64,000 nucleotides of DNA. Origin: Bacteroidota bacterium (lineage in GTDB: Bacteria > Bacteroidota > Bacteroidia > Chitinophagales > Chitinophagaceae). How positions within the stretch are numbered: position 1 is the stretch's first letter; each line of letters starts with the position of its first letter. The stretch spans positions 310,001-374,000 of the forward strand of contig VGFK01000002.1 of the NCBI GenBank assembly GCA_016868895.1, given 5' to 3'. The position numbers and the translations under genes were made by a program. Below the pieces are notes generated by a model. That model had not been told where the DNA came from. It saw only the letters and a list, made by a program, of their open reading frames with translations, and did not search any database. Below, piece by piece: positions 9,159 to 13,250 of this stretch.

Positions 9159-9166
9159 TACCTTTG
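9159..9166 (+). promoter_or_regulatory. Candidate rpsO promoter -7 element
   Basis: TACCTTTG matches TAnnTTTG, 49 bases upstream of the rpsO ATG. The longer leader would leave room for S15 autoregulatory RNA structure, which I could not demonstrate. Confidence 0.45.
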
Positions 9167-9487: not shown

Positions 9488-9503
9488 TATTCACTGAACA
9501 GTT

Positions 9504-9537
9504 GTATTCCCAACACCGGTTGGGAATACTGCTTTTT
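9504..9537 (+). terminator. Hairpin between rpsO and pnp (terminator or RNase processing site)
   Basis: GTATTCCCAAC (9504-9514) pairs perfectly with GTTGGGAATAC (9519-9529) around a 4-base loop, followed three bases later by five T (9533-9537). This looks like an intrinsic terminator, perhaps partial. In E. coli the rpsO-pnp gap holds both a terminator and an RNase III site, so a processing/attenuation role is possible here by analogy. Confidence 0.75.
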
Positions 9538-9559
9538 GGTAAACTCCAAAAACGAATTC

Positions 9560-11692
9560 ATGCTACAACAACCTTTTCAATCAAGTTTTGATCTTGGTAA
9601 CGGCAGGACCGTTACCATTGAAACCGGTCGACTGGCCCGTCAAGCCGACGGCTCAGTGACTGTTCGCCAAGGCAATTGCATCTTGCTTGCCACTGTATGT
9701 GCCAACAAAGAACCCAAAGAGGGACAAGAGTTTTTCCCTTTGTCGGTCGATTATCAGGAAAAATTTGCATCTGCCGGTAGAATTCCGGGTTCATTTTTTA
9801 AGCGCGAAGGACGCCTCAGCGATTATGAAATTTTGGTGAGCCGTCTCATCGATCGTGCTCTTCGTCCTTTGTTTCCAGAGGATTATTTCTGCGACGTTCA
9901 GGTGTTGGTCACCTTGGTTTCCTCTGATCCTGAAATCATGCCCGACTCACTGGCATGCCTTGCCGCATCTGCTGCATTGGCCGTATCGGATATTCCCATC
10001 AAGGAAATCATTTCTGAAGTTCGCGTTGCCCGTGTGAATGGTCAATACATTGTCAATCCATCCCGTTCTGAATTGGCATTGGCCGACATGGATTTCATGA
10101 TTGGCGCCACCGAAAAAAATCTCATGATGGTGGAAGGAGAGTCAAAAGAATGCCTGGAGTCGGACGTAGTCAAAGCCCTGGGCATTGCCCATGATGCCAT
10201 CCGCGTTCAAATCAGCGCACAGGAAGAACTTAGACAAAAAGTAGGAGTGAAGGCAAAGCGCGATTATACCAAACCACCTCAGGACGATGCGATTCAGTCT
10301 TTCGTTACTGCTTTTGCTAAAGACCGGATTCATGCCATTTCTAAGGCAGCCAGCAGCAAAAATGACCGTAGCCTTGCGTATGACCAATTGAAAAAAGAGG
10401 TCGTCGCTTCATTGGGCGCGGATGCAACGGATGCTCAGGTAAAATTGGCAAAAAAATATTTTGAGGACTTGAAATGGGAGGTGGTGCGCAACATGATCCT
10501 GGATGAGCGTGTGCGCTTGGATGGAAGAGTATTGGATCAGGTGCGGCCGCTCAACATGGAAGTAGACGTGCTTCCTGGTCCACATGGTTCTGCCTTGTTT
10601 ACTCGCGGTGAGACGCAGTCGCTCACCACCATCACATTCGGAACACCGCTTGATGAATTATTGATTGAAAGTGCAGCCAAGTCTGATTACAATAAATTCA
10701 TCCTCCATTATAATTTCCCTGCTTTTTCAACTGGAGAAGTAAAGCCGATGCGTGGACCGGGAAGAAGAGAAGTAGGTCACGGAAACCTGGCCTTGCGTTC
10801 GCTGAAACAAATGATGCCGGGTAATGACTATGCCTACACCGTGCGTGTGGTTTCGGATATTCTTGAATCGAATGGATCATCGTCCATGGCTACTGTGTGT
10901 GCAGGTTCTCTTGCCTTAATGGATGCAGGTGTTCCCGTCCCTAAGCACGTAAGTGGGGTGGCCATGGGACTCATCACCCGCTCAACCGATGGAAAGAATG
11001 CAATTCTTACTGATATTTTGGGGGATGAAGATCATCTGGGCGATATGGATTTTAAAGTGACCGGCACGCGCGATGGCATTTGCGGTATTCAAATGGATAT
11101 CAAAATCGACGGACTCAGCATGGAGACCATGATGGAAGCACTGGAACAAGCCCGAAACGGCCGCTTACACATCCTGGATGAAATGTACAACTGCATAGAT
11201 GCTGCTCGTTCAGAAGTCAAAGCCCATGCTCCTCGGATGCAAAAGCTTTTCATCGACAAAGAATTCATTGGTGCAGTGATTGGTCCTCAAGGCAAAATCA
11301 TTCAGGAAATTCAGCGTACAACTGGAACGACTATTACCATTGAGGAAATTGGCAACCAGGGCGAAGTCAGCGTATTCAGTCCTGCTAAAGAAGGACTGGA
11401 CAAGGCTGTTGCCTGGATCAAAGGAATTGTGGCCATGCCAGAAGTGGGTGAGGAATACGATTCAACTGTCAAGTCCATCATGCCCTATGGCGCTTTTGTT
11501 GAGTTCATGCCCGGCAAACAAGGCTTGCTGCACATCAGTGAGGTAAGCTGGAAGCGCCTGGAGAACTTGGATGGAATCCTCAAAGAAGGAGATACCGTGC
11601 GGGTTAAATTGATAGGAATTGATCATAAAACCGGCAAGTTCAAGCTCAGCAGAAAGGCCTTGATACCTAAACCTGATTTTAAACAAGATTAA
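9560..11692 (+). CDS. pnp: Polyribonucleotide nucleotidyltransferase (PNPase)
   Basis: 710 residues from ATG 9560 (MLQQPFQSSFDLGNG). PNPase is a phosphate-dependent 3'-5' exoribonuclease and degradosome component. It shows two RNase PH domains: the first has GRLARQADGSV and RPLFPEDYFCDVQV; the second, around residues 325-560, has LFTRGETQSLTT, GPGRREVGHGNLALR, SNGSSSMATVCAGSLALMDAG and DHLGDMDFKVTGT, with the catalytic Asp residues. A KH domain follows (FIDKEFIGAVIGPQGKIIQ), then an S1 domain (YDSTVKSIMPYGAFVEFMPGKQGLLHISEV). Length is typical. The frame is open from a TTG at 9536 but that would overlap the hairpin, so ATG 9560 is chosen. Confidence 0.96.
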   Translation: MLQQPFQSSFDLGNGRTVTIETGRLARQADGSVTVRQGNCILLATVCANKEPKEGQEFFPLSVDYQEKFASAGRIPGSFFKREGRLSDYEILVSRLIDRALRPLFPEDYFCDVQVLVTLVSSDPEIMPDSLACLAASAALAVSDIPIKEIISEVRVARVNGQYIVNPSRSELALADMDFMIGATEKNLMMVEGESKECLESDVVKALGIAHDAIRVQISAQEELRQKVGVKAKRDYTKPPQDDAIQSFVTAFAKDRIHAISKAASSKNDRSLAYDQLKKEVVASLGADATDAQVKLAKKYFEDLKWEVVRNMILDERVRLDGRVLDQVRPLNMEVDVLPGPHGSALFTRGETQSLTTITFGTPLDELLIESAAKSDYNKFILHYNFPAFSTGEVKPMRGPGRREVGHGNLALRSLKQMMPGNDYAYTVRVVSDILESNGSSSMATVCAGSLALMDAGVPVPKHVSGVAMGLITRSTDGKNAILTDILGDEDHLGDMDFKVTGTRDGICGIQMDIKIDGLSMETMMEALEQARNGRLHILDEMYNCIDAARSEVKAHAPRMQKLFIDKEFIGAVIGPQGKIIQEIQRTTGTTITIEEIGNQGEVSVFSPAKEGLDKAVAWIKGIVAMPEVGEEYDSTVKSIMPYGAFVEFMPGKQGLLHISEVSWKRLENLDGILKEGDTVRVKLIGIDHKTGKFKLSRKALIPKPDFKQD

Positions 11693-11701
11693 AAACGATA
11701 G

Positions 11702-11727
11702 AGCCGGCTCAAGGGCCGGCTTTTTTT
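11702..11727 (+). terminator. Intrinsic terminator of pnp that abuts the prmA start codon
   Basis: AGCCGGC (11702-11708) pairs with GCCGGCT (11715-11721) around a 6-base loop, followed by seven T (11721-11727). The next base begins the ATG of prmA. Confidence 0.85.
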
Positions 11728-12543
11728 ATGCCCTACACGGCCTTTCATATCACCGTTGACGCCCATGACAACCGAGAGGCACTATTGGGACTACTTCCCG
11801 AATGGGGTATTGATGGAATAGAGGAAACAGACGATCGGATCATCGCATATGCCAAACGTGGAAGCATCAATTTGGAGCATTTTTCCGAACACATGGAGAG
11901 ATTGCATTTCCAGTATACCATAGAAGAAGTCGAAGACCAAAACTGGAATCAGGCTTGGGAATCAAATTTCGAGTCAGTACTCATTCCAGGTAAGATTCAG
12001 GTTCGTGCATCTTTTCATGCACAAGATGATTTCGTCCCTTTTTCAATTCTGATCACACCTAAAATGAGTTTTGGAACCGGTCATCATGCCACAACCCGAA
12101 TGATGCTCTCCCTGATGCTTGAGCACACCCTTCAGGATAAATCTGTGTTGGACTTCGGTACCGGTACGGGGGTTTTGGCCATTTTAGCAGAAAAAATGGG
12201 TGCACGCGAAATTGTGGCTATCGATAACGACGAATGGAGCATTACCAATGCTGCTGAGAATGTGCTCTATAACCATTGCACCCGTATCTCGGTGATGAAC
12301 GCCAATTCGGTCCATTTGCTTGGTATGTTTGATGCAGTTCTGGCCAACATCAATAAACATGTGCTGCTGGAACAAGCCGAGGCGCTGGCTCAACGGCTGG
12401 CATCAAAGGGTACTCTCATAATAAGTGGTTTATTATCAAGCGATTACGGTGAAATTTTGAAAAAATATTATCCGTTGATGGGTCATCCTGTGGTGCAAGT
12501 CGTGGAAAATGACTGGTTGGCTCTGGGTTTTTCCAAGCCCTGA
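11728..12543 (+). CDS. prmA: Ribosomal protein L11 methyltransferase
   Basis: 271 residues. PrmA trimethylates ribosomal protein L11 using S-adenosylmethionine. The SAM-binding core has FGTGHHATTRMML (the PrmA-specific loop before motif I), motif I VLDFGTGTGVLAILAEKMGA, the acidic end of strand 2 in IVAIDNDEWSITNA, and motif IV FDAVLANINKHVLLE (NxxK variant of NPP). The N-terminal ~110 residues form the L11-recognition domain (WNQAWESNFESVLI). The start ATG follows the T-tract of the pnp terminator with no gap, so no ribosome-binding site independent of that hairpin exists. plsY starts 56 bases downstream. Confidence 0.92.
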   Translation: MPYTAFHITVDAHDNREALLGLLPEWGIDGIEETDDRIIAYAKRGSINLEHFSEHMERLHFQYTIEEVEDQNWNQAWESNFESVLIPGKIQVRASFHAQDDFVPFSILITPKMSFGTGHHATTRMMLSLMLEHTLQDKSVLDFGTGTGVLAILAEKMGAREIVAIDNDEWSITNAAENVLYNHCTRISVMNANSVHLLGMFDAVLANINKHVLLEQAEALAQRLASKGTLIISGLLSSDYGEILKKYYPLMGHPVVQVVENDWLALGFSKP

Positions 12544-12599
12544 CCGTGCGGACTGTCTTTATTTTTTCATTAATTTTACTCCCTATCACACTTGATTCA

Positions 12600-13250
12600 A
12601 TGACCGAATTGTACCTCATCCTTTTAGCCTATTTAATTGGGTCGATACCCACCTCCCTCATTGTTAGTCGGATGCAGTTCAACATTGACATTCGCGACTA
12701 CGGCAGTGGGAATGCAGGTGCTACCAATACCTTCCGGGTGCTGGGTACTAAGTGGGGCTCTTTTGTGATGGTGGTAGATGTTCTGAAGGGGATGATGGCG
12801 GTCAAGTTGGCCCTTTTGCTTCCTGCATACAATGGAAATGAATTTGAACGGACCAATTTCCAGATTGGTCTGGGATTGGCTGCTGTGCTGGGGCACATCT
12901 TCCCCATTTGGGCTGAATTCAGGGGAGGCAAGGGGGTAGCCACACTTTTTGGATTGATAATTTCGATATCACCTTGGACGGCAATCAGTTGCGCAGGGGT
13001 ATTTGCATTGGTTCTTTATTTAACCCGATTCGTATCGCTGAGCTCTATCTTGGCCAGCCTCGCTTTCCCCGTATTCATACTCATCATCTTCAATGTAGAC
13101 AACATAGCCTACCGGATATTCGCCATTGCAGTTGCGCTGACGGTGATTTTGACCCATCAGAAGAATATCGGTCGCCTTTTGGCCGGTAGTGAGAATAAAG
13201 TTCCCATTTTTAAGAATAGAGACCGTAGAAAATCCAAGCGCCTCTTTTAA
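12600..13250 (+). CDS. plsY: Acyl phosphate:glycerol-3-phosphate acyltransferase
   Basis: 216 residues from ATG 12600 (MTELYLILLAYLIGSIPTS). PlsY is an inner-membrane enzyme that transfers an acyl group from acyl phosphate to glycerol 3-phosphate, the first step of phospholipid synthesis. Three conserved motifs are visible: GSIPTSLIVSR near the N terminus, DYGSGNAGATNTFRVLG, and the GHIFPIWAEFRGGKGVAT stretch. At least five hydrophobic helices are present. An earlier GTG at 12546 would add an extra hydrophobic segment not typical of the family, so ATG 12600 is preferred. The basic C-terminal tail (FKNRDRRKSKRLF) is presumably cytoplasmic. Confidence 0.93.
   Translation: MTELYLILLAYLIGSIPTSLIVSRMQFNIDIRDYGSGNAGATNTFRVLGTKWGSFVMVVDVLKGMMAVKLALLLPAYNGNEFERTNFQIGLGLAAVLGHIFPIWAEFRGGKGVATLFGLIISISPWTAISCAGVFALVLYLTRFVSLSSILASLAFPVFILIIFNVDNIAYRIFAIAVALTVILTHQKNIGRLLAGSENKVPIFKNRDRRKSKRLF

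Follow-up and report, generated by a model that had tools for sequence, protein, structure and literature searches.

Directly upstream of prmA, a transcription terminator runs straight into the start codon, and this raises the question of how the gene receives its RNA. In the window, the whole 64,000-nucleotide stretch of DNA analysed here, pnp (polynucleotide phosphorylase; 9560..11692, forward strand; NCBIfam TIGR03591, 901 bits; start ATG 9560 picked by position in relatives) precedes prmA (ribosomal protein L11 methyltransferase; 11728..12543, forward strand), whose open reading frame matches NCBIfam NF001785 at 274.5 bits against a cut-off of 188. The next gene is plsY (glycerol-3-phosphate acyltransferase; 12600..13250, forward strand; TIGR00023, 190 bits), which probably starts at ATG 12600 rather than GTG 12546, the ATG being the start that agrees with the relatives and with a promoter-like motif at 12571-12578.

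Anatomy of the pnp-prmA junction

Direct reading of the sequence places the pnp stop codon TAA at 11690-11692, a hairpin at 11700..11723 on the forward strand, with its GC core starting 10 nt past the stop, and a T7 tract at 11721..11727 on the same strand, the last T of which adjoins the prmA ATG at 11728-11730 with 0 nt between them; the letters between the TAA and the T7 are GAGCCGGCTCAAGGGCCGGCTTTTTTT. An earlier note on this DNA had claimed a G/C hairpin and seven T ending at 11727, followed at 11728 by the prmA ATG, and this proved exact; its observation that no leader lies between the terminator and the ATG is likewise borne out. The hairpin folds at -16.5 kcal/mol, compared with -7.6 +/- 2.5 for shuffled sequences (z -3.5), and of eight terminator-like matches between 9000 and 14000 it is the one immediately 5' of prmA, with 10 pairs. 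The junction thus has the GC-rich stem and immediately 3' U-run of an intrinsic terminator. The pnp stop lies 35 nt from the prmA start, a distance that leaves none of the stop-start overlap of classical translational coupling, and no riboswitch or ribosomal-protein leader from Rfam scored above its gathering threshold there (best overlap L20_leader, 20.7 bits against 58.7).

Conservation of the junction in related genomes

A search for PrmA covered 60 genomes, among them the source genome and 36 of the same genus, five of which gave no match; one of the 32 genus loci (L028) ends before pnp and was left out, giving 31 examinable loci. In all 31, pnp lies directly 5' of prmA, and the space between these co-directional genes holds a stem and five or more T, as expected of an intercistronic attenuator. 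The comparison of gene order and spacing suggested in the earlier note therefore upholds the order pnp, hairpin, T-tract, prmA. The exact spacing is kept in part: the first in-frame ATG follows the T-tract at 0 nt in 16 of the 31 loci, at 1-6 nt in 12 and further off in three (L019, L023 and L029), so that exact zero spacing is not required at pnp-prmA. Conservation by itself is compatible both with selection for zero spacing and with compactness that was inherited.

The prmA ATG has a common position in the relatives and the first residues of the proteins align. No conserved later start, an alternative raised in the earlier note, is therefore apparent, and a wrongly chosen prmA start codon is ruled out.

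The stem sequences themselves vary between loci, and the changes are compensatory. In 24 of the 31 loci, with near-duplicates and long-gap loci left out, 34 cells are altered on both sides of a pair, compared with 8.1 +/- 3.2 in shuffles; none of 500 shuffles reached this number, and slid alignments gave at most 15.

Among the best 80 of 172 loci from named genomes, five have pnp upstream inside the examined flank, with a spacing of 0 nt in three, 4 nt in one and 211 nt in one. The junction is also present at the Chitinophagaceae-type loci L041, L048 and L059. In other families of the order pnp was upstream of prmA in 0 of 18 loci, several of which carry instead what we take, from its motif, to be a putative end of tpiA. 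One other-family locus (L124, genome G051) has a hairpin and T-rich tail a few bases 5' of the prmA ATG; the region upstream of prmA there is unlike the pnp-prmA case.

prmA as a proposed attenuated distal gene

We consider it most likely, from sequence comparison, that the merger of terminator and start attenuates prmA. In the model that we favour, with moderate confidence, pnp ends at an intrinsic terminator made up of the hairpin and T7, and prmA, a distal member of the rpsO-pnp transcription unit, is attenuated. Polymerases would mostly halt just 5' of the prmA start codon, and those that read through would yield prmA mRNA, on which a folded hairpin would stand a few nucleotides from the AUG in place of the A-rich stretch at -10 to -13. 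Output of prmA would be low and set by pnp transcription together with the leakiness of the terminator, while plsY would be transcribed from a separate promoter. That polymerases read through in the cell, how often they do so and what purpose this serves are inferences from the sequence.

The predicted position of this hairpin bears on translation. One study describes the ribosomes of Bacteroidia as not using the Shine-Dalgarno sequence and as depending on adenines upstream of the start and on little structure (PMC9976891). The earlier note was correct that prmA has no ribosome-binding site; because Bacteroidia ribosomes do without one, its absence is ordinary and carries no weight. We sampled 464 kb of the source genome (20 stretches plus the window), comprising 290 genes of at least 200 aa, and found adenine enriched at -10 to -13 of their starts. 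The prmA start lacks both the A-rich stretch and low structure, its -30..+15 region being the most stable among the 290 genes. Since both features are missing, initiation on prmA is expected to be weak.

Terminator-start fusions elsewhere in the genome

Six T directly 5' of an ATG occur in 2 of the 290 sampled genes, prmA and xerC. A genome-wide search for the fusion pattern gave 91 matches, compared with 66 for a reversed control, and the sites were then screened; outside the sampled stretches, the enumerated sites were those with G or C at both bases before N-T6. Requiring 0 nt spacing, a stem of -15 kcal/mol or lower and a full-length gene, the screen yields three fusions: pnp|prmA, rpsU|xerC and rplY|pth, where rpsU, rplY, xerC and pth are names that we presume from reading the protein sequences, without a family search. 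Six other rows with 0 nt spacing (L136, L138, L154, L162, L190 and L212) were set aside for weaker or absent stems or doubtful frames. The fusion at pnp-prmA is thus real, conserved and recurrent, and the two further examples rule out a unique oddity.

Both sister junctions hold their spacing within the genus. At rpsU|xerC it is exactly 0 nt in 16 of the 18 loci where rpsU was found, the exceptions being L230, at 2 nt, and L233, which lacks a T-tract (L234 and L235 have no usable junction). Of 22 rplY|pth loci, 16 have a spacing of exactly 0 nt and one more has 1 nt; L263 gave no rplY match. In other families, 0 nt spacing is seen at none of six xerC loci, one of which (L237) carries its T6 at a distance of 2 nt, and at none of four pth loci. 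No such fusion exists at the rpsO-pnp hairpin next door, where the final T-run and the ATG are 22-24 nt apart in most loci, and zero spacing is therefore specific to some junctions.

Two observations were made in passing at these and similar sites. At the rpsU|xerC junction (L132:14915-14956) the primary sequence of the hairpin, GTAGTCAT..TAACTTTATGACTAC, is kept in most genus loci; a strict pattern finds it, once each, in 10 of 37 genomes, a -7-like box lies within its 3' arm, and terminating transcription may not be its sole role. At L133:5978-5990 a strong terminator comes after an apparent rpoB end, and the ATG 4 nt beyond its T-tract belongs to a lipoprotein-like gene, not to rpoC.

The recurrence of these junctions bears on the best-surviving alternative to the attenuation model, a neutral compaction in which deletions removed the spacer between terminator and ATG and left an ordinary leaky terminator of no regulatory meaning. 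This we regard as plausible, at a confidence well short of that given to attenuation. The spacer would be dispensable because Bacteroidia need no Shine-Dalgarno sequence (PMC9976891), and the range of 0-6 nt in 28 of the 31 loci is what such a process could leave behind; the persistence of 22-24 nt at most rpsO-pnp junctions would then reflect a general stability of spacers. However, compaction has not been uniform, since at rpsU|xerC and rplY|pth the stem still stands about 20-30 nt away from the stop, and the parallel maintenance of three fusions also argues against it.

Consideration of this stop-to-stem distance leads to a second possibility, which would refine the attenuation model rather than replace it. 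A ribosome finishing pnp could cover the 5' arm of the stem, block the hairpin and let the polymerase pass into prmA, so that PrmA would be made in step with PNPase translation. We hold this refinement to be tentative. The argument for it is that the distance is short at pnp, about 6-12 nt, with a median of 10 nt and at most 12 nt in 23 of the 31 loci, whereas the medians are 26 nt at rpsU and 21 nt at rplY, with 0 of 17 and 0 of 19 loci, respectively, at 12 nt or less; these counts drop rplY rows L260, L264 and L265 and rpsU row L233. The 32 terminator candidates in the sample of the source genome have a median of 23.5 nt, with the clean ones mostly at about 19-28 nt, although these are few and some of them are weak. 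Coupled ribosomes can antiterminate intrinsic terminators (PMC7858274); by the same source, a short stop-to-stem distance can equally mean uncoupled ('runaway') transcription.

A broader proposal, which we think unlikely, is that the fusions form a distinct conserved regulatory junction of this Bacteroidota lineage, in which the terminator would act as a barrier at the start codon, opened at pnp by the finishing ribosome, with PrmA proportional to PNPase translation. Such a barrier would be possible since Bacteroidia initiate without Shine-Dalgarno sequences, and the upstream genes belong to translation or RNA decay.

Promoter motifs and the source of prmA RNA

The attenuation model expects prmA to lack a promoter of its own. 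The -7 promoter motif of Bacteroidota is TAnnTTTG, and a sigma-70 promoter scan is ill-suited to this phylum. We sought the strict motif TANNTTTG within 150 nt upstream of start codons, and a relaxed form, TANNTTT[AG], at -60..-15. The strict motif was found at 0 of 31 genus loci for prmA, compared with 17 of 18 for rpsU and 25 of 31 for plsY, which served as positive controls. The relaxed motif at -60..-15 was likewise absent from all 31 prmA loci and present at all 31 for plsY (6.1 in shuffles), mostly at -28..-37. In the window, the -7-type promoter-like motif of plsY, TAATTTTA, lies at 12571..12578 on the forward strand, 29 nt before ATG 12600, and a further positive control, TACCTTTG, stands before rpsO at 9159..9166 on the forward strand, at the head of the rpsO-pnp unit; the roughly 1.4 kb of pnp examined in the source genome contains no promoter motif.

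prmA thus seems to be hemmed in, with the terminator of pnp on one side and the promoter of plsY on the other. The earlier note had offered read-through, an internal promoter at the end of pnp and a leaderless start as sources of prmA RNA. Because the motif is absent at prmA and present at rpsU and plsY, read-through from pnp is the best-supported and probably the likeliest of these, and an internal promoter finds no motif support. Read-through need not be invoked for plsY, which has its own promoter-like motif.

A promoter within pnp that escaped the scan, through use of another sigma factor or a degenerate box, would be a rival here. The scan, which is blind to other promoter types, can miss promoters, as four pnp-prmA loci with long gaps (L019, L023, L029 and L038) are also without a motif, and weak relaxed matches occur at about -112 of prmA in 5 of the 31 loci. 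Against this, the -60..-15 region is empty throughout, and the -112 matches fall inside the pnp coding sequence, do not occur in the source genome and number about what chance would give (relaxed matches at -150..-1 in 6 of 31 loci, compared with 4.6 in shuffles). We judge a hidden promoter improbable. A leaderless prmA mRNA with its 5' end at the ATG, for which the zero spacing speaks, is very improbable. Its -7 box could only sit in the 3' arm of the hairpin and the T-tract, where the source genome has no TANNTTT[AG], and the stem sequence varies between relatives. Against it, too, 5' UTRs shorter than 10 nt amount to roughly 3.7% in B. thetaiotaomicron (PMC7366714).

The sister fusions behave differently. 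A TAnnTTTA box lies at about -22 of xerC, inside the hairpin, with a relaxed motif within 150 nt in 15 of 18 loci, and another at about -40 of pth, with a relaxed motif at -60..-15 in 12 of 22. With promoter-like boxes in or beside the hairpin, xerC and pth may be transcribed on their own, and a single promoter rule for all three fusions is unsupported. This weighs against the attenuation model, as do the long-gap loci that lack a motif and the variable spacing at pnp-prmA.

Relation to known intercistronic terminators

In the macromolecular synthesis operon of E. coli the intercistronic terminator T1 lies between rpsU and dnaG. The arrangement described here would be similar, with a terminator that follows a highly expressed ribosomal gene and reduces expression of a downstream gene in low demand; it differs in that the U-tract touches the start codon, a Shine-Dalgarno sequence is not needed and other gene pairs are involved. 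E. coli also has the rplL-rpoB attenuator and the rpsO-pnp t1 terminator, with which the present case would share partial termination, inferred here, within a unit of ribosomal and RNA-enzyme genes. The spacing to the next start is different from these, and the gene attenuated would be prmA, 3' of pnp. In its presumed working the junction therefore resembles known intercistronic attenuators, and what sets it apart is the absent spacer before the start codon. Leaderless and short-leader genes offer another likeness, since no leader separates the upstream signal from the ATG, but no promoter motif is placed here for a start at the ATG. Our literature search, with subscription journals mostly outside its reach, returned no terminators abutting start codons in Bacteroidota and no pnp-prmA unit.

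If the attenuation model is correct, a lineage that ignores the Shine-Dalgarno sequence can join the signal that ends transcription to the one that starts translation. The signature of hairpin, T6-7 and ATG would then flag genes dependent on terminator read-through, and the L11 methyltransferase would be tied to PNPase output.

The rpsO-pnp spacer

The spacer at the other end of pnp (9488-9559) holds a hairpin at 9504-9529, reading TATTCCCAAC..GTTGGGAATA and then CTTTTTGG..CCAAAAA. It has no match in Rfam. Its primary sequence is kept in the genus and in Chitinophagaceae-type loci, and its core pattern occurs in 27 of the 60 genomes, nearly always once, which makes it a candidate cis-regulatory RNA of pnp.
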